Shown one piece after another: positions 1 through 41,458 of a stretch of 64,000 bases of DNA (the first letter of the stretch is position 1; every line of letters starts with the position of its first letter). Position numbers and translations under genes: made by a program. The stretch covers positions 1-64,000 of the forward strand of contig CANLND010000015.1 in assembly GCA_947492585.1 (NCBI GenBank). Direction: 5' to 3'. The notes under the pieces were generated by a model. The model was given only the letters and a program-made list of their open reading frames with translations, was not told where the DNA came from and did not search any database. Source of the stretch: an uncultured Paracoccaceae bacterium. GTDB taxonomy: Bacteria; Pseudomonadota; Alphaproteobacteria; Rhodobacterales; Rhodobacteraceae.

Positions 1-1730
<1,730 letters not shown>

Positions 1731-2183: not shown

Positions 2184-4403
2184 TTATACCCCTGCCTGCA
2201 AAAGTTCTCGAATTTGTTCGCCGGACAGCTCTCGTTTCTTGCAGAGCGCTTTGGCGACAGTGTTCAAAAGGGACTTGTGGCTCCCGAGGATTTGCAGAGC
2301 GTGTTGTTCTGCATCTTTAAGAACCTTGTCCAAGCATTTTGTTGTTGTCCGGTCTTCCTTGTGAGCCTGAGAGGGAGCGAATACGAGTTGATCTCCCAGT
2401 CCCCATTCAAATTGCATTTGTCCGGCGAGGCGTGTCGCGAGTTCTAGGTCTGAGTTCTGCCCTAGGCCAGCACCATTGAGCGCTTCGCCAAAGATGACAT
2501 GCTCCGCCGCGCGGCCGCCGAGTAGGGCGGCAATGCGGTTCTTGGCGCTTTGAGCGCTTTCTAGCATTGGCGATGGGATGTCGACGAAACCACCTGTTTG
2601 TGTGATAGTTGCGCGTTCTGCAGGCGGCAAGCCCAGAACATGTGCGACGACGAGATGGCCCGCTTCGTGGATGGCGATACGCCAAAGGAGGTCTTGGTCC
2701 AAGACCGGACAAATTTGTGAAGCGACGGTTTCTAGGTGAGTTTGAGCCAGTTGTTTGTGTTCGGCGCGAGCGAGGCCCCGCGCTTCGCGGACAACAGCTG
2801 TGGCCTGCGCTCCGGATGAGCCAAGCAGTTGGTCTGCGATGCGAGCAAGGTCCATGCCTTGCACATCTTCGCCCAAGGCCAGTTCTAGGATACTTCGGAT
2901 GGACTGCCAGTCCGGAGTAGAAATCTCGATTCTGAGATCAAATCGGCCAGGCCGAGTGACTGCCGGATCGATCAAATCGAGGTAATTGGTCGCGCCGAGA
3001 ATGATAACGCCAGGAGTATCGTTCAGTCGTGTAAGGTGTTCGAGAATCCCGTTTACCACACCCACGATATAATCAGAGCCGCGGCTGGGGCGGTCGCGAT
3101 GGGTGAATGAATCCAGTTCATCGAGAAAAAACACCGACGGTGCAGATCGGATGGCTTCATCAACTTTACCGGACAAAGCCTTAAGCATGTCACCTTGGTG
3201 TCCGTGTTTTTGGCAATCGGAGTAGCTGGTCGCAATGAGGGGGATGTTGAGGCTTCCGGCAAGCGCTGATGCGAGAAGCGTTTTGCCATTGCCCGGTGGG
3301 CCGTGAAATAGCACCGAAGATGACACCTCGGCCCAATCTAGTTGTCCGGCCTTCCACGCGATCGTGTCCGCGACCAGGCGGTCAATTGGCGCGCGTGTGT
3401 CTGCGTTGAGAACGATGTCGCACAGTGTCGTTGCCGCCGGTGGCACTGTCCGGAAACGCTTCGCAGCGGTCGCAATGGCTTTGGCCACCTTGAGTGTGGT
3501 CTCTTCTAAGAATGCGGACTCAAAGACAGCGGCTGGAAGCGCAGCGATTTCGTTGTCCGGTGGCAGAAAGACTGCGATTGCATCTTCGGATAATTCACCT
3601 GTCGCGGTATGTGTCACACGCAGGATCTCAACGATCATTTGACCGGACAAAGTGGGCCAGTTTAGCACGCGCCCGCACATCGCGCGCGTGACCGGTGACA
3701 TAGAAGTTGCGTCCGGCGTGAGTGCGAGAAGCTTGTGACCGTTGCTAACGGTTGCTTCGACGGCTTCCTCAAAGTCCTCGCGCTGTGATGCGCTTCGACC
3801 TTTGGTCTGATTTGGCTCCACCGCAAGAACCGGCGTTTTGAAATCACGCCACGTGTCGTCGCTGTCCGCGCTTATATCGGCAAGCCGTTGCAGCACGTTG
3901 CAGAGGCTTTTCCAGGCCGCCTTGCGCTCGGTTCTTTCCGGGATTGTGATCATAGAGAAGGCGCGGGGCGCGGTGATGTCGAGAAGTAGGGTGGCATTTG
4001 AGAGCAGGGCGGCGAAGCGCGCGGCGGTCAGCATACTCGCGATGGGTGGTTGGTGAAGGAATGAGCTAACGTCAAAATTTGTCGTCTCTGCCCAAGGATC
4101 CTGACCGGTGGCAATCGCTGCTTCGATCTCATGTTGTGGCATGGACGAAGCGGCAGGCATTGCCTCGTAAGGCGCGTTCAAAGCGCGTTCGAGTTCGTCA
4201 AAAGCGGGTGTGTCCAGTTCAGGAGCACCCTCGACATCAATGTCATCGAACTCAAGCTCTGGATCGAGTGGTACGAGACGTGTCCGCTCGCGGTGCCACA
4301 TAGCGATGCTGCGGAGGAGGGGACGTAACAGCTCGAGAGAGTGTGGAGATAACGCAGGACTAGTGTGCGCGCTGGCGCGCTGGTTCAGTGATAAAGGGGG
4401 CAT
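2184..4403 (-). CDS. AAA+ ATPase with C-terminal M41 (FtsH-like) peptidase domain, no membrane anchor
   Basis: The protein combines an ATP-driven unfoldase with a zinc protease. An acidic N-terminal region of some 330 residues matches nothing I recognise. It is followed by an AAA+ core with Walker A GPPGNGKT (about residue 367), Walker B SVFFLDELDS, sensor GATNYLDLIDPAV and the arginine motif TRPGRFD. The peptidase part has the zinc motif HEAGH (about residue 577) and the FtsH-type third-ligand stretch NSDLELATRLA. True FtsH has two N-terminal membrane helices; none is visible here, so it is probably cytosolic. The start is uncertain: the open frame extends to a TTG at 4520, and I use the ATG at 4403. 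It may be co-transcribed with the GIY-YIG gene upstream. The substrate is unknown. Confidence 0.85.
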   Translation of the reverse strand: MPPLSLNQRASAHTSPALSPHSLELLRPLLRSIAMWHRERTRLVPLDPELEFDDIDVEGAPELDTPAFDELERALNAPYEAMPAASSMPQHEIEAAIATGQDPWAETTNFDVSSFLHQPPIASMLTAARFAALLSNATLLLDITAPRAFSMITIPERTERKAAWKSLCNVLQRLADISADSDDTWRDFKTPVLAVEPNQTKGRSASQREDFEEAVEATVSNGHKLLALTPDATSMSPVTRAMCGRVLNWPTLSGQMIVEILRVTHTATGELSEDAIAVFLPPDNEIAALPAAVFESAFLEETTLKVAKAIATAAKRFRTVPPAATTLCDIVLNADTRAPIDRLVADTIAWKAGQLDWAEVSSSVLFHGPPGNGKTLLASALAGSLNIPLIATSYSDCQKHGHQGDMLKALSGKVDEAIRSAPSVFFLDELDSFTHRDRPSRGSDYIVGVVNGILEHLTRLNDTPGVIILGATNYLDLIDPAVTRPGRFDLRIEISTPDWQSIRSILELALGEDVQGMDLARIADQLLGSSGAQATAVVREARGLARAEHKQLAQTHLETVASQICPVLDQDLLWRIAIHEAGHLVVAHVLGLPPAERATITQTGGFVDIPSPMLESAQSAKNRIAALLGGRAAEHVIFGEALNGAGLGQNSDLELATRLAGQMQFEWGLGDQLVFAPSQAHKEDRTTTKCLDKVLKDAEQHALQILGSHKSLLNTVAKALCKKRELSGEQIRELLQAGV

Positions 4404-4480
4404 GAGGGAAAGCCTAGGGAAAGTGATCAAAGGGCAGGGGGAACAGAGGGGCGCGGTAAGGTGCGACCTTCTGTGTCGCC

Positions 4481-5467
4481 TTAGGAAGCTGTATCTCTGA
4501 GAGATGTAAACTGTTGCCAATTGTCAGTCTGGTTCGGGTCCCAACCGTTGTTGGCCGCATCGATAAGAGCCAAGATAAGGGCCCGTCCACGCTCGTGATA
4601 AATCTCTGAAGTGGTCCTCAGGTGCTCATCGAAATGGACGCGTTCCACAATCAGATCTGGCCGATGTGTCTTGATGTAGCGGTGCATTGCTTTCTCCAGG
4701 CAAATGGCGTCGTGTCCGGTCTCGACGTCGATCTCTCGGTCCAATGTGCCGTGGGTCTCGGAAGGATCACGTTGCACTTGCCGCAACCGAAAGGTCGGGT
4801 TGTTGCTGTAGCCGAGTTTGATCACAGGCACATTCGGCAACATGAAGGACAATAGATAGATTTTGCTCGGCTTCGACGTCCAGGTCTCTCCACAACCGGC
4901 GCAATTTACATCGCCGGCCCGCATATTGGCCACGCCGACATCTTGCTTATGGCCACACTCATGTTCGTATTCTCTATAGCTTTGATTATTCCGCGCAGCG
5001 GGGCCAATGAGCTTCCAGCCATGGGCCTCAGCTTCAGAAGCGTGGAGCTCATTCGTGCAAATGTTACAGCTTAGATCGTGTCCGCCTTCGGCAGCCGTTT
5101 CAACGCGTGTGTGTTGGCGGCGATCAACATGTCCGCATTTGAATTGATACGTACCATAGTGACGATCGCCCTCGGGATCGGGCCCAAGAAGAGTAGCGCC
5201 AACTTTAGCAGCGGCCGCTTCACGGCGTTTACGGATGCAGTTGCCGCATTCCGGATTGTGCCCAAGCACCACGCTGATGCGCTTGAGTGTAGCGTCGCCG
5301 CAGGTTTTGCATTCCAGGACGACATGCAAGCGGTCCACTGCACGGCCAATGAGTGTAAATCCGTGCCTCCGTGCGGCCTCAGCCCAGTGTTCGTGTTTCT
5401 TTCCCTTAAATACTGGGTACATTTTGCGGTCGATTGGAAAGGCGTAGTAAGTGTCTGTGATAGGCAT
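4481..5467 (-). CDS. zinc-ribbon repeats plus GIY-YIG-like (T5orf172/MUG113) nuclease domain
   Basis: This is a probable DNA-acting protein of 328 residues. The first 200 residues hold at least three repeated Cys-rich units (CKTCG...CGNC, CGH...CNIC, CGH...CAGC), each resembling a small zinc ribbon with a G-W/F-x-L-I-G segment between units. The C-terminal part (IYLLSFMLPN, VIKLGYSNNPTFRLRQVQ, LEKAMHRYI) matches the divergent GIY-YIG group seen in phage T5orf172 and Mug113 proteins, with the catalytic Arg and Glu plausibly kept. A GGAG eight bases before the ATG at 5467 sets the start. The gene lies directly upstream of the AAA-M41 protease gene on the same strand, suggesting a two-gene unit. 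Its function in the island is not known. Confidence 0.72.
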   Translation of the reverse strand: MPITDTYYAFPIDRKMYPVFKGKKHEHWAEAARRHGFTLIGRAVDRLHVVLECKTCGDATLKRISVVLGHNPECGNCIRKRREAAAAKVGATLLGPDPEGDRHYGTYQFKCGHVDRRQHTRVETAAEGGHDLSCNICTNELHASEAEAHGWKLIGPAARNNQSYREYEHECGHKQDVGVANMRAGDVNCAGCGETWTSKPSKIYLLSFMLPNVPVIKLGYSNNPTFRLRQVQRDPSETHGTLDREIDVETGHDAICLEKAMHRYIKTHRPDLIVERVHFDEHLRTTSEIYHERGRALILALIDAANNGWDPNQTDNWQQFTSLRDTAS

Positions 5468-7200: not shown

Positions 7201-7440
7201 ATGGATCAAAAAAACGACCTCTTAATTGAACGCTTCGCGCGCGCTCTACAGCTGCGCAGGAGGGAATGCGGCCTCTCACAGGAAGAGCTGGCACATTCGG
7301 CAGGTCTCTCAACCAGTTATATGTCCTTGTTAGAAACTAGAAAGCGACAGCCAACGCTGTCCGTTTTGGGAGCCTTGGCGAAAGCACTTGATCTCAGCTT
7401 GTTAGAGTTCATGGGAATGATCGGAGAAGACGACGGATAG
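7201..7440 (+). CDS. XRE-family controller (C) protein
   Basis: This is a 79-residue helix-turn-helix regulator of the size and pattern of C proteins that time restriction-modification genes. The HTH is GLSQEELAHSAGLSTSYMSL, followed by LETRKRQPTLSVLGALAKAL as the recognition and dimer helices. No strong ribosome-binding site precedes the ATG; C-protein genes are often leaderless. Two C-box-like repeats lie immediately upstream, consistent with dimer-pair binding and autoregulation. No methyltransferase or classical restriction enzyme gene is visible nearby. The genes within reach are the divergent membrane protein and, 306 bases downstream, the ABC-ATPase operon. Confidence 0.85.
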   Translation: MDQKNDLLIERFARALQLRRRECGLSQEELAHSAGLSTSYMSLLETRKRQPTLSVLGALAKALDLSLLEFMGMIGEDDG

Positions 7441-7746: not shown

Positions 7747-8658
7747 TTGGAATTTAGATATCGAAGAGATTGGGACGGCAAGGAGTGGCAACGCTTTTCC
7801 AAGCAACTCGTTCAGGTCAGGCACCTACCCCAAAATGTGCAGGACGTCCCGGATGCAGTACAGGGGGATGCTGGACTAGAATTCATAACCAGTGATGGAT
7901 GCTGTTATCAGAGTTACGCCCCTGAAGAGACGTCTAATAAGGCAAAAGCCGCCAGTGCAATGAAGTCGAAGGGCGCGCGTGACTTACGCAAACTTATAAA
8001 CAATAGGGACAAAATTTCTGCCATCCTAGGTGACAAAAAAATTTCAAATTGGATTTTACTCTGCCCCTTTTTGGATAACAAAGATGTAATCTCTCACCTT
8101 CAAAAGGTCGCCAAAGAGGTAACAGAGGCTGGATTGCCATTTGTGGCATCTGATTTCTGTGCGCTTGTGCAGTGTCAGGATGACTTCGACACAGAGTTCC
8201 AACTGCTGCGCTCTAAGGCTGTGGGAGCTCCTTTGCCCATCAAGAAACCAAGCGCAGATCAGCTTGAAACAGCCGCTAGTCAGTTGGATCAGCGAGTAGA
8301 AGACAAGCTTAAACGAGCATTTCCCAGCGACGGCAACGCAAAGACTGAAAAGCGTAAGAAGAACTTCGTCTATGCACATGTCGAGCGAGAGAATGTGCTT
8401 TCGGACCTGAGAGATGAGTACCCTGATTTTTGGGAAGCCTCCAATGAGTGCATTGCCGCTGAAGAGCGACGTCTCGAGATGGCTGGTGCAGAGGGCGATA
8501 CGGCCTCTCAGCAGATTAACTCCTCCATGGATCGAGTAGAAAAAGCCCTCAAGAACCAAGTGCCTGGTCTTTCAGACAGGCAAGTTACCTCTATTTCTCA
8601 AGGCCAGGTAGGAACGTGGTTGCTAGAGTGCCCACTAGATTTTGAAGAACCGAATTAA
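7747..8658 (+). CDS. PD-(D/E)xK-like protein, first gene of an ABC-three-component-like system
   Basis: This 303-residue protein opens with a restriction-nuclease-like fold pattern. WQRFSKQLVQV is a first helix, and GDAGLEFITSDGCCYQSYAP is the core strand pair in which Mrr-type nucleases have GDxGxD...QxK. Here the second motif reads YQSY, so the catalytic lysine seems replaced. The middle is lysine-rich, and the C-terminal half is helical with an FVYAHVERENVL segment. It starts at a TTG with no good ATG nearby. The next gene begins one base after its stop. It may be an effector or a DNA-sensing subunit; activity cannot be claimed from sequence alone. Confidence 0.6.
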   Translation: MEFRYRRDWDGKEWQRFSKQLVQVRHLPQNVQDVPDAVQGDAGLEFITSDGCCYQSYAPEETSNKAKAASAMKSKGARDLRKLINNRDKISAILGDKKISNWILLCPFLDNKDVISHLQKVAKEVTEAGLPFVASDFCALVQCQDDFDTEFQLLRSKAVGAPLPIKKPSADQLETAASQLDQRVEDKLKRAFPSDGNAKTEKRKKNFVYAHVERENVLSDLRDEYPDFWEASNECIAAEERRLEMAGAEGDTASQQINSSMDRVEKALKNQVPGLSDRQVTSISQGQVGTWLLECPLDFEEPN

Positions 8659-8659
8659 G

Positions 8660-9145
8660 ATGAACATCGAACTTAATACTGACCGAAATTTTTCCTTCGA
8701 GCGTAAACCCTCCCCCGTTCCGGGCGACCTTCGAATTGGGTGGCGTTTACCCTTAACGCTTCTTATGTTGAACAGTTCACGCGGGAAAAGAGCTTCACTT
8801 GCGAAACTGAACTTGTTGAATGATGCGCTTCGCTCTGAACGTTCTCGAGAGAAGTTAAGCAAGATCATACGTGGTGAAACTGCGCTAATTGAGTGGCGAA
8901 TGCGTGTAGAGCCAGCCTTCGGGAGGAATGTCGATCTGATGACTGGTGGACAACTGGCTGAATGGAGAGTTGCTAACGGAAGGGCAGCGATCTGCCTTAG
9001 TGAAAAAGGTAAGAAAATCGCGAAGGTGCTTGAGAATGACAATAATAGCTTTGTTGTTGAGAAGGCATTCCTCAAGGAATTCTCGAACAAGGTCACCGAA
9101 GCGTTTGTGAACCAAATCCTTTTAGCCAACAAGGCGCCGTCATGA
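8660..9145 (+). CDS. small linker protein, probable middle component of the ABC-type system
   Basis: The product is 161 residues from the ATG at 8660, one base after the preceding stop; an upstream TTG at 8642 would add six. It has a winged-helix-like pattern: RIGWRLPLTLLMLN, a helical stretch with ASLAKLNLLNDAL, then LAEWRVANGRAAICLSEKGKKIAKVL as helix and wing. No catalytic motif is visible. Position decides the call: small winged-helix middle components sit between effector and ATPase in ABC-three-component conflict systems described by Aravind and colleagues. Its end overlaps the ATPase gene by four bases (ATGA), a sign of translational coupling. Confidence 0.55.
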   Translation: MNIELNTDRNFSFERKPSPVPGDLRIGWRLPLTLLMLNSSRGKRASLAKLNLLNDALRSERSREKLSKIIRGETALIEWRMRVEPAFGRNVDLMTGGQLAEWRVANGRAAICLSEKGKKIAKVLENDNNSFVVEKAFLKEFSNKVTEAFVNQILLANKAPS

Positions 9146-11205
9146 TCCATATTAACACGCTGAAGCTTAGGTCAATAACGGCCAAAACTATCTTTGGGGT
9201 TGATCTTGGTTTTACTTCCGGTCTCAACATCGTCCAAGCAAGCAACACCTCTGGCAAATCTACTTGCCTTCAAGCGATCATCTATGTGTTAGGTTTAGAG
9301 CGTTCATTGGGCACCAACTTGTCTGTTCCGCTGCCCTTTGCAATGCGGGAGCGGATCCAAGAGACCGAAGACGATGAGTACCAAGAAGTTCTGCAATCAT
9401 ATGTCGAAATTGAGATTAAAAATCAAACCGGCAAAAAGCTTCGAATCCGAAGAAGCATCGTCGGCGATGCAGACACAAAGTTGGTATCGACGTGGTCACT
9501 GGAGGACTCGGATGGCAACGGTCAGACGCGAGAGCGACAAAGAGATTTCTTTGTCCACGATCCCGGCTCGGCAACAAGAGAAAGTGGCTTCCATCACTTC
9601 TTAGCTGAGTTCTTAGGATGGACGCTTCCGTTTGTACCAAAGTTCGATGGGGCAGAATGCCCATTGTATCTCGAGACGCTTTTCCCAATGTTCTTTGTAG
9701 AGCAAAAACGTGGCTGGTCTACCGTGCAAGGGCCCTTGCCGACTCACTTCCGAATTCAAGACATCAACAGGCGAGTTCTAGAATTCATACTAAATCTGGA
9801 TGCTGGAAAAGTGCGCAGGGAACGGGCAGATCTCAATAAACGGATCGGCATTCTTGAGAGCGATTGGTCAGATAAGCGCCGTACGTTGGCAAGCGGAGGG
9901 GTTGACCTTATCCGATTTGTTGGCGTCCCCAAGTCGCCAACAGCTGAGTTTTCTCACCAAGCGACGATTTCGTTGGAGGTCTTCTTGGATGGTGAGTGGT
10001 TGCCTCTGGAAGTAGCTTCCAGGGAGTTGTCGGACGAGATCAAGGAGCTAAACAATATCGAATTGGTCTCTACAGAGGAGGCTGAGGCCAGCACACAAGA
10101 GGCTCTCAAAGTGGCCCAAGACAAATATGATGAGCTTGGGGCAATATTTGAGGTCGCGAGAACAGAGTTCCGCACGATACTTGAAGAAAACAGAGCACTG
10201 AATAAGCGCCTAGAGGCGCTGGATATTGATCTAAAACGACATCAAGATACCAAAAAGCTAATGATGCTTGGATCGGGGATCACAGATGTGGTTTCTTTCG
10301 AAAACTGCCCGACGTGCCATCAACATTTGACCCAAGAACTACTTCCGCCAAGTTCTTCCGGGGCAATGGCCCTAGACGAAAACATCGCATTCATAAAATC
10401 ACAGCAGCTTATGTATAAATCAGCGCTGTCAGCGACTGAGGAGAGGCTCGGAGAGCTACGTCTTCGCGGACGATCCATTGAGCAGGAATACAAAGAAGCT
10501 CAAAGCGAGCTGCGTAGCTTGAAGCGTGCACTCGTGCGCCCAGCATCCAGCGTCAATAGAACAACAATTGAAAAGTCGGTTCGATTGCAAGCCCGTCTGT
10601 CTAAATGGGATGAAATGCAGGAACGTGCAGATAGTCTTGTAGACGAACTGGTCGCTATTGCCAAAGAATGGGCGCAACTTTCAGCCCAGCTAAGGGCGTT
10701 GCGAACCGGGGATGATTTCACGCTTGACGACAAAAACAAGATGTCCCGCCTCCAATCTCTGGTCCAAGGGCATCTGAAGACGTTTGGCTTCCATTCTTTC
10801 CCACCCTCAGAAATCACACTAGCTAAGGATAATTTTAGACCACAGGTACTTGTGACTGATAAGGATTCGGGCAGTGAAATCGAGAAAGATATTGGTTTCG
10901 AAGCGTCAGCAAGCGACGGGATTCGTTTGAAATGGTCGTACTATCTCTCTCTTTTGGAGCTAGACGAAAACCACGACACAAACCACGGCGGGCTGGTCGT
11001 GTTCGATGAACCGGGGCAGCAAGCTGCCGATCCGGTAAATCTGAACAGCCTGTTTCAAGAGGCGGCCAAAATCAAACCGAACCGTCATCAGATTTTGATC
11101 GCAACCTCGGAGAAGGAACAGGCCATCAAGGAAGGGCTTGGTGACCGGCCACACAATCTGATCTCGTTCGATGGATACATCCTGAAGCCCTTACATAGCG
11201 CGTAA
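9142..11205 (+). CDS. SMC/Rad50-like ABC ATPase with zinc-hook motif
   Basis: This is a 687-residue chromosome-type ABC ATPase. The Walker A region is ASNTSGKST (residues 33-41), with alanine where the first glycycine usually stands, so it is a slightly degenerate P-loop. A long coiled-coil arm occupies about residues 220-240 and 310-530. At its tip CPTC (Cys389, Cys392) resembles the Rad50 zinc hook. The C-terminal lobe has the SASDGIRLKWSYYLSLLE signature and Walker B GGLVVFDEP (about residue 617). The protein belongs with ATPases of ABC-three-component or Rad50-like defence systems and should dimerise on DNA. It is coupled to the upstream small gene and followed by a DUF3800 gene 57 bases later. 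Confidence 0.82.
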   Translation: MIHINTLKLRSITAKTIFGVDLGFTSGLNIVQASNTSGKSTCLQAIIYVLGLERSLGTNLSVPLPFAMRERIQETEDDEYQEVLQSYVEIEIKNQTGKKLRIRRSIVGDADTKLVSTWSLEDSDGNGQTRERQRDFFVHDPGSATRESGFHHFLAEFLGWTLPFVPKFDGAECPLYLETLFPMFFVEQKRGWSTVQGPLPTHFRIQDINRRVLEFILNLDAGKVRRERADLNKRIGILESDWSDKRRTLASGGVDLIRFVGVPKSPTAEFSHQATISLEVFLDGEWLPLEVASRELSDEIKELNNIELVSTEEAEASTQEALKVAQDKYDELGAIFEVARTEFRTILEENRALNKRLEALDIDLKRHQDTKKLMMLGSGITDVVSFENCPTCHQHLTQELLPPSSSGAMALDENIAFIKSQQLMYKSALSATEERLGELRLRGRSIEQEYKEAQSELRSLKRALVRPASSVNRTTIEKSVRLQARLSKWDEMQERADSLVDELVAIAKEWAQLSAQLRALRTGDDFTLDDKNKMSRLQSLVQGHLKTFGFHSFPPSEITLAKDNFRPQVLVTDKDSGSEIEKDIGFEASASDGIRLKWSYYLSLLELDENHDTNHGGLVVFDEPGQQAADPVNLNSLFQEAAKIKPNRHQILIATSEKEQAIKEGLGDRPHNLISFDGYILKPLHSA

Positions 11206-11262
11206 TATTGGAAGCTGAACGAGAAGGGCGAGAACTGGCATTGGTTATGGGGATGAGTTCGA

Positions 11263-12384
11263 TTGCATTACTACGTTGACGAAAGTGGCCATACTGGCCT
11301 GAATTTGTTCGATGAACATCAACCCATATTATACTATGGTGTCCTTGGCTGCCGGTACAACTTAGATTTTGTTGCCGAGCCTCTTTTGCAGAAACTTCGG
11401 GTAAAATTGGGAGTTGATCGACTTCATGCAAACCAGCTTGGCGTTGGTCGATTGGTTGAAGTTGCTCCCTATCTAACAAAATTCAGCATCAAAAGAGATA
11501 TCCGATTTCATTTGTACAAGGTTGTCAAATCCGATCATTCTATTATTACATTTTTTGACCAAGTTTTTGATTGCGGGATGAATGATGCGGTTTCTTGGCA
11601 GCACTATTGGACGCCCTTAAGATACGCCCTTCTGTTCAAGGTAGCGTATTTGTTTGATGAGGAACTGGCCAAAGCAGCTTGGAAAGCGCGCACAGAACAG
11701 AATCCACATCACTGTGAAGCTCAGCTTGTTAACTTATGTGAAAAACTCTTGGAGCGAGTAGGTTGGCTTCCTGATTTACGATCACGTGAATTGGTTGGTG
11801 ACGCCCTAAAATGGGCCAAAGCGAATCCGGGGGAGATCAGCTATGGCTCAAGCAACCGTGAGAGTTCGCTGCAAATTTCACCAAACTTAGTGGGCTTTCA
11901 GCAAGTATTGCAGGGCATCGCTTTGCATTCGTCAAAAGTAGGAAGAAAGGTCAGCCGAATAACTGTAGACAGGCAAACGGAATTCAATGCTGCGCAGGCA
12001 GAGTTGGCCGACGTCTACGGCAGATTACGATCGCATAAAAGTAACATGGGTCCGGGAATGCTAACATTCGATTGGTCAAAGATGCCAGAGGCTAGTCCCA
12101 TCTTTCGTCCGGGCGACGAAAGTGCTGGGTTAGAATTGGTAGATGTTACTCTCTGGCTTATGAAGCGGTTGCAGGAGGGAAAGGAGCTCCCACGGGAGCT
12201 AAATGAACTTATTTGGGCCCAAACCCGACGCGGCGGGACAGACGAGGTTTCTTTAGCTGGATTAGATCGGCGTTGGCGTCACATAGCAGAGCTGCCTGAA
12301 CCCGACAAAAAGCTACCAGAAGATCTCGAACAGGCGCTAGCTGAAGCAGAGGTTCGTAGAAAGGAAGCGGTGATAGGGCTTTAA
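11263..12384 (+). CDS. DUF3800-like protein, fourth gene of the system
   Basis: The product is 373 residues and starts with YYVDESGHTG, the hallmark of DUF3800 proteins, which are predicted to have an RNase H-like fold. A second conserved acidic patch is VDRQTEFNAAQ (about residue 240), and another acidic site is near VDVTLWLMKR. These acidic residues could form a metal-dependent nuclease site. A TTG at 11263 is the only sensible start because the DESG motif begins three codons later. It lies 57 bases behind the ATPase gene with no terminator between them. DUF3800 genes are often found in defence islands; a role in this system is inferred from position. Confidence 0.75.
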   Translation: MHYYVDESGHTGLNLFDEHQPILYYGVLGCRYNLDFVAEPLLQKLRVKLGVDRLHANQLGVGRLVEVAPYLTKFSIKRDIRFHLYKVVKSDHSIITFFDQVFDCGMNDAVSWQHYWTPLRYALLFKVAYLFDEELAKAAWKARTEQNPHHCEAQLVNLCEKLLERVGWLPDLRSRELVGDALKWAKANPGEISYGSSNRESSLQISPNLVGFQQVLQGIALHSSKVGRKVSRITVDRQTEFNAAQAELADVYGRLRSHKSNMGPGMLTFDWSKMPEASPIFRPGDESAGLELVDVTLWLMKRLQEGKELPRELNELIWAQTRRGGTDEVSLAGLDRRWRHIAELPEPDKKLPEDLEQALAEAEVRRKEAVIGL

Positions 12385-12599: not shown

Positions 12600-13937
12600 C
12601 TAAAGTTCAGGCTCATCGGACACCGGCGTGATTTCGACCACGTTGCGCCCGTTATCAACTCTCTGGGCAATTAGTTTACAAAGTCGTCTGAATAGACCAA
12701 CCGTTCTACTTTCGTGAGCTTTCTTCCGAAATAGATGCTTGAGAAAGCGGGGTGGTTTCTGCATTTGGATTGCACCATTCAAAACGATCGCCTCACCGGT
12801 TTCTAATTGAGTGATGAGCGTTTCCATGGCGTCCAGCCCGTCGTCGAATTCTGCCTGCTTTTGGGATAAGTCCGTGAGGCTATTAGCGTGACATGCTTTG
12901 ATGTCTTCGACCATATCGATTTCCTGATCGACACGTTCGCGATCCCTTTCAATAGTCTCAATATCGGCAGCCAACCTTTGCGCGTTTTTCTGTCGTACCC
13001 CATATTCAACCGTGCTCAGGCGCTCGGCTTTGGGACCGTCCCGCAAGAGGCCGCAGGGTTTTCCCACCGCTTCATAATACCGATCTTGCAGCGCTTTCAT
13101 CGCTGCCGTGTAAGCATCCTTTTCCGGGATGGCGCCGCGTTGCTTGCGTGCGGATTTGAGGTGCGCAGAGTTGGCCGTGTTCCAGTTCGCCAGCAAAGTA
13201 GCATTGTGGGCTTCAACCTCCCGGCATTCCTTTTCCCACTTTGCCAGCTGCGCCTCTCGTTTGATTTTATTCTTGCGCTGCGTTTCGCGGTTCTTTGACG
13301 GGCGGGGTTGCTTGGGCTTCCTCGGGCGTTTCTGCAACTCAGGCTTTGGCAAGGCTGTTATCGCAGTTGGAACATCCAATGTGTGGCGGAGCTTTGCTGC
13401 CGCGGCTTTCCCGGTATGGTGCTTGTTTGCGTCCAGCTTCGGGTCCTTTGGATTGATCGCAAGGATATGGAAATGCACATGGCTTTCATCGACATGCATG
13501 ACCGCGGTCCATTCGATTTCCTCTGTCATCCGAGCCTGAAAATCCTCGAGGGCCAGTTTGATCCATTTCTGAATCTCGGGACCGTGGGTTTTCTTGTCCG
13601 CCAAAAACGTAGAGGTGGGCAGGGGATGCGAGTGGATTTCCGTATAGAGCGTCGCCGCATCCTTGCGCAGCTTTCGCTCATAGGTGCTGCCATCTTTGCG
13701 GGTGACCGTTTCCGTTAGGTCTTTCAGAAGGGCCGTGTGTCTTGCTTCAAGTTGGGAGACTGAATGTGTTCCCCCAAGCCGATAGACCTTTCCGACCTCA
13801 TCGACATGGCCAGAGTATTTGGGCACGCGTCTTGCCTCCCCGAAAACCTGAGCAGCGGAATTGAAATGATTGTCTGTACCCTTAACCTTTGTTTGGGCTC
13901 TCGAGTATGTTTCGATGTGAATGAATTGATAGGCCAT
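12600..13937 (-). CDS. MobV-like relaxase for mobilisation
   Basis: This is a 445-residue relaxase of the Mob/Pre type that would nick DNA at an oriT for conjugal transfer. The three-histidine metal motif is HVDESHVHFH (residues 148-157), matching the HxDExxPHxH pattern without the proline. An N-terminal NHFN at residues 23-26 could hold the nucleophilic histidine known from MobM; that is inference. Residues 210-265 are very basic and helical, followed by a long coiled coil (about 310-370). An AAGGA precedes the ATG at 13937. No coupling protein or mating-pair genes are in the window, so the island would be mobilisable, not self-transmissible. Hairpins upstream may form its oriT. Confidence 0.8.
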   Translation of the reverse strand: MAYQFIHIETYSRAQTKVKGTDNHFNSAAQVFGEARRVPKYSGHVDEVGKVYRLGGTHSVSQLEARHTALLKDLTETVTRKDGSTYERKLRKDAATLYTEIHSHPLPTSTFLADKKTHGPEIQKWIKLALEDFQARMTEEIEWTAVMHVDESHVHFHILAINPKDPKLDANKHHTGKAAAAKLRHTLDVPTAITALPKPELQKRPRKPKQPRPSKNRETQRKNKIKREAQLAKWEKECREVEAHNATLLANWNTANSAHLKSARKQRGAIPEKDAYTAAMKALQDRYYEAVGKPCGLLRDGPKAERLSTVEYGVRQKNAQRLAADIETIERDRERVDQEIDMVEDIKACHANSLTDLSQKQAEFDDGLDAMETLITQLETGEAIVLNGAIQMQKPPRFLKHLFRKKAHESRTVGLFRRLCKLIAQRVDNGRNVVEITPVSDEPEL

Positions 13938-14077
13938 CACAGTTCCTTTCTGTTGCATTTCAGAAAGGCTCGGTGAGGTTCATGAAAGTTCAAAACTGGA
14001 TTTCATACCCTGAGGGAATGGCGTGCAGAAAGCTGTGGATATCCGATCCGTCGGGGCGCGTTTTCTACCCATAGAGA

Positions 14078-14259: not shown

Positions 14260-14556
14260 CTAGTAAATCAGGAGAACCTTTTCCGCCCCTTCCTTTATCG
14301 CGATTGCCGTTCGCATGCTCGTATCCAATGGCTCCTTTGTCATTGATCGGGGTGTGGGGTGTCCCCAACCTAGCTCCTCAACCAAAGCGTGGTGGAGCGG
14401 CGCAACGCTCCAATTAAGGTCATCAAAAACGGCACTCAGGGGGCAATCGATTCGAAACGAAATTTTGAAGTCGCAACTGTATTCGCGGACATTCACTGTG
14501 AGTGCGAAGTCGTGTGATGTTACTCGGGGCTTTAACGTTTTAGTGGTGCGGATCAT
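14260..14556 (-). CDS. hypothetical protein overlapping the preceding gene
   Basis: This is a possible 98-residue gene whose ATG overlaps the last 17 bases of the upstream periplasmic-protein gene, with GGGG just before it. The product has alternating hydrophobic residues (HDFALTVNVREYSCDFKISF) and a charged C-terminus, with no signal peptide and no recognised motif. An open frame exists on the other strand as well, so composition does not settle the matter. The overlap geometry is typical of coupled genes; otherwise there is little support. Confidence 0.35.
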   Translation of the reverse strand: MIRTTKTLKPRVTSHDFALTVNVREYSCDFKISFRIDCPLSAVFDDLNWSVAPLHHALVEELGWGHPTPRSMTKEPLDTSMRTAIAIKEGAEKVLLIY

Positions 14557-16299: not shown

Positions 16300-16731
16300 C
16301 TACTCATGCGGTGGGTTTCGCGCAGCTTGGATGTCCTGAACACGTTCCGGCCAGGTCGAGCGGATATAGGCGAGAATGTCCCAAATCTCTTCATCCGTCA
16401 GCGTTTCGCCGAACCCCGGCATCCCGCTGGCAAACCCAGTGACACCACGTGCCGAAAGCGCAGCTTCCCCACCTAGCTTTGTGTATTCAAACAAAAGTTG
16501 ATTGTCGTGGTGCCAGGTGTGCCCTGTCTGGTCGTGCGGGGGCGCGGGAAGAACGCCATTTTCATCAGGCGTTCGCCAATCCGGTTGCCCTTCAAGATTG
16601 GCTCCGTGGCAGGCGGCGCAATGTTCCGCGTAGAGGCTTTGCCCGTTAGACAGATCTCGACTGTCCAGCTCGTGATCAGCGAGAACGCTCGTTGCGGCAA
16701 AGCACAGGGTGATAGCCAAAAAATGCCTCAT
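16300..16731 (-). CDS. small secreted c-type cytochrome
   Basis: The product is 143 residues with a signal peptide (MRHFLAITLCFAATSVLA) and one haem-binding motif, CAACH, near residue 39. The distal part (ASGMPGFGETLTDEEIWDILAYIRSTW) contains the axial methionine region of class I cytochromes c. The ATG at 16731 overlaps the stop of the multicopper oxidase by four bases, so the two are translationally coupled. An upstream in-frame start would add 22 residues without a signal sequence and was rejected. It probably carries electrons to or from the oxidase in the periplasm. Confidence 0.88.
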   Translation of the reverse strand: MRHFLAITLCFAATSVLADHELDSRDLSNGQSLYAEHCAACHGANLEGQPDWRTPDENGVLPAPPHDQTGHTWHHDNQLLFEYTKLGGEAALSARGVTGFASGMPGFGETLTDEEIWDILAYIRSTWPERVQDIQAARNPPHE

Positions 16732-18023
16732 AGAACCTCCACCCATGTTTTCATACCGCCCGCCTGATGGCTGAGCATATGGCAATGCAACATCCATTTG
16801 CCTGGGTTGTCGAAGACACAGACTATGTCCTGTGTTTCGCCCGCCTGTACCAGTGTCGTATCACGCAGATCACCATGGCTGCCGTCATCTCGCACCTCGA
16901 AGAAATGGTGCCCGTGCAGATGAATGCCATGCGGGAAGCTTGTATCATTGACGAGGCGGATCCGCGCGGTCTCACCTCGTTGGAAACTGGCAAAGGGCGC
17001 GGGTTGAAGGTCTGAGAGATCGTTGAAGGCCCAGATATTGTCGCCGCCATGCCTGCCGCCCATGGCTCCGCCCTGCATGGTTAAAACGAGGTCCTGTGCG
17101 ACATTACCCGGGTGCGGTACAACATTTGACGGTAGCGTTGGGATCGCAGAAGCGCGTGGTTCCACTTCGCCGTCAACTGCCAACTGACCAAGCAAATAGC
17201 TCCCCCCGCGTGTCGCCATCGCGATTTTCAGAGTGTCTTCCACGTCTGCGATAACATTGGCGCGTTGCGCTGGGGCCAGATCGATAGTTTCAAACTCCCG
17301 TGGTGACGACAGCGGCATGCCATCAAGCGCTACAACCATGCCTTTCAGACCCGTCAGAGTGAGCGGGAAAATCCTGTCAGTTGCGGCGTTGATCATCCGC
17401 AGACGGATGCGCTGCCCTTTCCTCAGTGACACGTCAGGCATACAGGCGCGCGCAAAGTTGCCCATTCGCCCAGCATGGGCCACATCGTGCATTGTGGCGA
17501 AATCGTCGGTCATTTGCCCGGTCTCATCCAGACGCCAATCGGCCAGCACGGCGGTAAAGTCATGATCAACATCTGGCGGGTTGGCCTCCTCGACAATCAA
17601 AGGCCCCATCAACCCGCGCGCGACCTGTTCGTGCGACAGGTAGTGCGAGTGATACCAGAAGGTGCCCGCGTCGGGAGGCGTGAATTGATAGGCGTGGGTG
17701 CTCTGGGGATCCACGATCTCCTGCGTCAGGATTGGCACCCCATCCATCTCATTCTGAAGACGGATACCATGCCAATGGACCGCTGTGCCCTCATTCAATT
17801 GGTTGCGCAAGAGAACGTCGAGGTGCTGGCCTTGTGGCACCCTGATTTCCGGCCCGGGCAAGCTGCCGTTAAAGCCAAATGAGCGCGTTGCCGCGTATTC
17901 GGCAGAGGGCAGGATCTGTGCCTCCACTGCTTCGGCAACCAGTTCAAATTGGCCTCGCGCGAGCGAGACGTTCGGGAGGGCTGCCGCCGCGCTCGCGGTC
18001 AAAAGAAAGTCACGTCTGTTCAT
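16728..18023 (-). CDS. multicopper oxidase of the CueO/CopA type
   Basis: This 431-residue periplasmic oxidase has a Tat signal (MNRRDFLLTASAAAA). The four copper-binding stretches of the family are all present: HWHG, WYHSHYLSHEQ, HGIHLHGHHF and HCHMLSHQAGGM. Enzymes of this group oxidise Cu(I) to the less toxic Cu(II), or other metals or phenolics, while reducing oxygen to water. The methionine-rich insert of E. coli CueO is not obvious. The gene lies eight bases behind copD and is coupled to the cytochrome gene, so it probably acts in a shared periplasmic copper pathway. Confidence 0.93.
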   Translation of the reverse strand: MNRRDFLLTASAAAALPNVSLARGQFELVAEAVEAQILPSAEYAATRSFGFNGSLPGPEIRVPQGQHLDVLLRNQLNEGTAVHWHGIRLQNEMDGVPILTQEIVDPQSTHAYQFTPPDAGTFWYHSHYLSHEQVARGLMGPLIVEEANPPDVDHDFTAVLADWRLDETGQMTDDFATMHDVAHAGRMGNFARACMPDVSLRKGQRIRLRMINAATDRIFPLTLTGLKGMVVALDGMPLSSPREFETIDLAPAQRANVIADVEDTLKIAMATRGGSYLLGQLAVDGEVEPRASAIPTLPSNVVPHPGNVAQDLVLTMQGGAMGGRHGGDNIWAFNDLSDLQPAPFASFQRGETARIRLVNDTSFPHGIHLHGHHFFEVRDDGSHGDLRDTTLVQAGETQDIVCVFDNPGKWMLHCHMLSHQAGGMKTWVEVL

Positions 18024-41175: not shown

Positions 41176-41458
41176 GCGCTTATTTGGGAGAAATTGCGGG
41201 TTTCAATTTCGTTCAGAAGTTGTACCACTGCTCCCAAGTTATTGGCTGGATCTGGGGAAACCCAGGTCCAGCCTAACCTGTCTCAGTAAGGGCCCTTTTT
41301 CACGGGGGTTTTTTCTAAGGCAAGGTTTTAGGATCGGGAGGCCGCCATTCGGGACGACGGCCATGAATTGATCCAACCCTGCTGTCTCGTATGGGCAAGG
41401 TGCCGGAGCCCGGCGGTACTCTTGTTCTGGTGAGAACACTCGAAAGGTGACATCTGAC

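Follow-up and report, generated by a model that had tools for sequence, protein, structure and literature searches.

The window analysed here, the whole 64,000-nucleotide stretch from contig CANLND010000015.1 of an uncultured Paracoccaceae bacterium, carries four consecutive plus-strand genes at 7747..12384. The original prediction, drawn from the DNA letters, described them as a four-gene conflict system of the ABC-three-component (ABC-3C) kind, in which a DUF3800 protein serves as accessory or effector. The open reading frame (ORF) coordinates bear out the positions and spacings of all four genes:

7747..8658, plus strand: lmuA (gene 1; 303 aa, TTG start), effector with an N-terminal PD-(D/E)XK/Mrr-type nuclease domain (~4-159) and a C-terminal LmuA helical domain (~159-303)
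8660..9145, plus strand: lmuC (gene 2; 161 aa, ATG start one base past the TAA of gene 1), small middle component, PADLOC LmuC profile PDLC03871, E 4e-19
9142..11205, plus strand: lmuB (gene 3; 687 aa, protein P0003), overlapping lmuC through ATGA; Rad50/SMC-like ATPase with a CPTC zinc hook, presumed DNA sensor, PADLOC LmuB profile PDLC03863, E 5e-107
11263..12384, plus strand: DUF3800 gene (gene 4; 373 aa, protein P0004, TTG start, 57 bases 3' of lmuB), RNase H-like fold, judged a neighbour and not a component

PADLOC profiles matched all three genes of the triad, which very probably constitutes a complete Lamassu type II (LmuA-LmuC-LmuB) anti-phage or anti-plasmid operon on a mobile island, with the DUF3800 gene as an independent neighbour. 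The LmuB profile match spans residues 7-683, with the CPTC hook at residues 389-392, and LmuC is present, which the excerpted text of PMC8565338 gives as a mark of Lamassu type II. Structure comparison of the LmuA model matched its C-terminal half to solved LmuA chains and its N-terminal half to PD-(D/E)XK/Mrr-type nucleases, that is, a variable N-terminal enzyme domain joined to the LmuA C-terminal domain as in type II effectors; the model also supports the earlier description of gene 1 as nuclease-like. The label 'winged-helix-like' given to gene 2 found one weak hint in a profile search, namely matches to diphtheria toxin repressor and IdeR chains (E at least 0.27) at profile positions 88-130, a part that we take to be the winged helix. 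Pfam, which presumably contains domain families named ABC-3C, returned no ABC-3C effector C-terminal or middle-component domain for genes 1 and 2 at E up to 1. The broader assignment to an ABC-3C-like defence system built of effector, middle component and Rad50-like ATPase is supported, in that a 2023 review places ABC-3C inside the Lamassu superfamily in its excerpted text (PMC10586767). The Lamassu type II triad is itself a known kind of system within that superfamily.

Relatives of LmuB were collected from plasmids (13 of 24 records read), genomes (best 80 of 215) and viral contigs (27). The resulting 120 loci amount to fewer independent cases, because L013 and L056 are one plasmid fetched twice and some viral loci resemble near-duplicates. 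As judged by the profiles of A, B and C, the three genes form a single conserved cluster, as in Lamassu type II, with the order A-C-B in all 13 plasmid, 78 of the 80 genome and all 27 viral loci; lmuC thus lies between lmuA and lmuB in 118/120. The two exceptions, L032 and L093, start at contig edges, and L093 apparently supplies the missing latter half of the lmuB truncated in L024, which bears the same organism title. Putative catalytic residues are conserved as well: 119/120 loci retain the hook cysteines of LmuB, 119/120 its Walker A residues and 119/120 D622-E623, and in every case the one other locus does not contain the stretch concerned (alignment A1 omits L012, with lmuB in two frames). 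In LmuA, G40, G43, Q55, D79 and K82 are kept in 117/117 loci scored, and D41 and K75 in 116 of them (alignment A5 omits 10 of 76 usable rows by choice). Individual loci show damage. In L002 an IS5-family transposase gene interrupts lmuC (L002:4649-6004; this locus is omitted from LmuC alignment A3), in L012 lmuB is broken into two frames (L012:4923-6994), and in L147 the lmuB match is confined to the first 44 residues.

The four nearest relatives among the best 80 of 215 genome relatives belong to Tropicibacter, Pseudooceanicola, Salipiger and Mameliella, with LmuB 84-85% identical. Their DNA in common with the window runs from 7747 to 11189-11192, i.e. it starts with lmuA, stops where lmuB ends and leaves out the DUF3800 gene; the fetched stretches share nothing beyond it at E 1e-5. 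Because this similarity begins exactly at 7747, it backs the TTG start of lmuA.

Compared with Lamassu type II as known from V. cholerae DdmABC and Salmonella LmuACB, the triad is alike in its three genes and A-C-B order, in the Rad50-like LmuB with zinc hook and in the fold of the LmuA C-terminal domain. As to differences, the N-terminal nuclease is closest, among the matches listed, to an Avs4 domain, whereas the excerpted review names Cap4 for Vibrio, and Mrr and PD-(D/E)XK effectors also appear in its list (PMC10586767). The Walker B glutamate E623 is retained (119/120 loci), in contrast to the glutamine that the same text describes as general in LmuB. The locus extends the data on a Lamassu branch with an Mrr nuclease in which this glutamate is retained.

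Gene 4 passes the Pfam model PF12686 (DUF3800; E 8e-7, 30.3 bits against a cut-off of 21), in agreement with the DUF3800 protein originally reported 57 bases behind the ATPase gene. P0004 has 373 aa against 149 profile positions, and its predicted RNase H-like fold is the one also given for a published DUF3800 protein (excerpt of PMC10910872); to judge from the model, it probably acts as a nuclease with this fold. The Cas12a2-linked DUF3800 protein of that excerpt has a TPR part, whereas the Pfam scan of P0004 revealed none.

In all likelihood this gene is a mere neighbour, unrelated to the triad and dispensable to it, that would have been put behind lmuB through reshuffling of the island. DUF3800 is not kept beside the triad: 117 of the 120 related loci, including the four with 84-85% LmuB identity, have no trace of it behind lmuB, and at least 1.5 kb of DNA is present there in 108/120. 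An intact P0004-type gene occupies this position once, on the minus strand and convergent (L052:10056-11105), while the plasmid fetched as both L013 and L056 has a weak, short DUF3800 tail match, likewise convergent (L013:7096-7455, minus strand), perhaps a remnant. Co-occurrence of the four genes in other genomes, on which the predicted system depended, is therefore nearly absent, and the proposed role of DUF3800 as accessory or effector is not sustained. A rival account, which we regard as improbable, would count the gene as an accessory fourth member of the system in this Lamassu lineage, often gained and lost, whose RNase H-fold nuclease would widen or control the response. The same-strand position 57 bases behind lmuB, with no terminator-like site found between them, would suit such a component, as would the nuclease-like fold, the second intact case in L052 with the weak remnant in L013/L056, and the published DUF3800 protein that accompanies some Cas12a2 systems (excerpt of PMC10910872). 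However, the convergent L052 copy means that there DUF3800 and lmuB do not form one operon, and with the lack of any trace in 117 loci stands the occurrence of four close plasmid relatives of P0004 (60-67% identical) without Lamassu within 6 kb.

The wider distribution of P0004 is consistent with a gene independent of the triad. Relatives of P0003 and of P0004 each occur in 4/390 genomes of the window's order, one of the P0003 relatives being a 44-residue piece, and the two proteins occur together only in the window's own genome. P0004-type genes were found in none of the 40 LmuB plasmid and virus records and in 2/76 LmuB genomes, a set that omits L045 (same genome as L052), L031, L054 and L093 (which shares its organism title with L024). 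Conversely, of 2187 plasmid records with P0004 relatives five were read, containing the four above, which are among its closest, and these have no LmuA, LmuB or LmuC within 6 kb. No partner is general to the twenty P0004-type loci compared, and the most widely shared neighbour family occurs in 4 viral loci (DUF3800 alignment A6 omits the fragment L112). A literature search of a limited collection returned no paper naming both DUF3800 and Lamassu, an absence that is no proof of a four-gene system. These loci add data on P0004-type DUF3800 genes that plasmids and viral contigs carry apart from Lamassu.

The position behind lmuB is itself variable. Counting the window, lmuB is followed within 200 bases, on the same strand, by an ORF of 100 aa or more in 37/121 loci; these ORFs were called mechanically, and some may not be genes. 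Their Pfam families are mixed, with Mrr (2), IrrE-like peptidase (2) and single cases of DUF6088, AAA, FRG, PIN, integrase core and others, and DUF3800 appears once, in the window itself. PADLOC matches, among those listed (25 of 109 families), add a single AbiEi and a single Septu PtuA. In the four nearest relatives (L020-L023) the same slot holds, 47-120 bases behind lmuB, a 155-167-residue protein paired with a GmrSD (type IV restriction) endonuclease, called by Pfam on L020, with which the other three cluster; the pair has no sequence match to the window in this slot. Such mixed content is the neighbourhood expected in a defence island. That P0004-type DUF3800 might instead be a loose, repeatedly acquired partner of the Mrr-type Lamassu lineage, placed in this swap slot, which in some relatives holds GmrSD or Mrr restriction genes, and adding a second nuclease to the response, appears improbable.

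A reading of the ATPase as an SbcC/RecN/SMC-like protein of DNA repair, which would give its cluster a role in repair and not in defence, is very hard to sustain: LmuB shows weak matches to SMC_N, AAA_23, ASRP and SMC models, to a phage SbcC-like family and to Rad50 N-lobes, but the Pfam and NCBIfam matches lie under curated cut-offs (SMC_N 21.4 bits against 40; AAA_23 25.9 against 27; TIGR02169 24 against 729) as opposed to the LmuB match at 5e-107, and occurrence is patchy (4/390 genomes of the order, one as the 44-residue piece), in plasmid and island settings, with LmuA and LmuC as partners. The protein remains Rad50/SMC-like with a CPTC hook, as originally described, and a place in the housekeeping RecN/RecF/SMC groups is not indicated, since curated SMC and RecN models are not passed and the LmuB profile is matched.

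Family matches of the three genes, their conserved order and their conserved putative catalytic residues are direct observations on the triad, and these conserved parts fit the published Lamassu scheme, by which, we infer, this operon works. In the excerpted sources, LmuB is the likely sensor and LmuA the effector (PMC10586767), Lamassu is entered as a system that senses DNA ends or hairpins and whose outcome is DNA cleavage (PMC12904381), and Lamassu effectors are said to become active through oligomerisation (PMC12799240). By analogy with other Lamassu systems, LmuB and LmuC would sense aberrant DNA, e.g. free ends or hairpins, upon which LmuA would be freed or activated, oligomerise and cut DNA; this cutting would stop the infection and probably harm or kill the cell. 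The suspected new four-gene system is removed from the list of candidates and the locus placed as Lamassu.

The surroundings of the triad include the following features:

33..1730, minus strand: large serine recombinase with Resolvase, Recombinase and Zn_ribbon_recom domains
2184..4520, minus strand: FtsH-like AAA+ ATPase with an M41 peptidase domain, the ATPase part matching PADLOC IetA models (4e-25)
7201..7440, plus strand: XRE-type helix-turn-helix gene (HTH_3, E 1e-12), outside the DNA common to the nearest relatives
12600..13958, minus strand: relaxase-like Mob_Pre gene (PF01076, E 6e-5, 23.5 bits, below the cut-off of 25.5)

The XRE gene upstream of the triad is a possible candidate regulator, and the small ORFs left of the triad are mostly without family. 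The original prediction had placed the genes on a mobilisable island. A mobile island is supported by the recombinase and because the match between window positions 1-22000 and 13-kb stretches of two congeners begins only at 14544, and no LmuB relative turned up in the six congeners within the sample of the order; 'mobilisable' hangs on the single sub-threshold relaxase match.

The contig begins in a tRNA (1-76; anticodon read as CAT), with the serine recombinase directly after it. Many genomes of the genus carry several copies of this tRNA, which, we presume, may lie at the ends of rRNA operons. Inside otherwise shared DNA, next to cytochrome c and CopD genes, the two congeners lack at this place the stretch 16683-18016, into which the greater part of a multicopper oxidase gene (16728-18023) falls. 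The genome probably belongs to the Rhodobacterales, as suggested by the nearest relatives and by a Rhodo-rpoB RNA (Rfam RF03074) at 41331-41424 on the plus strand.
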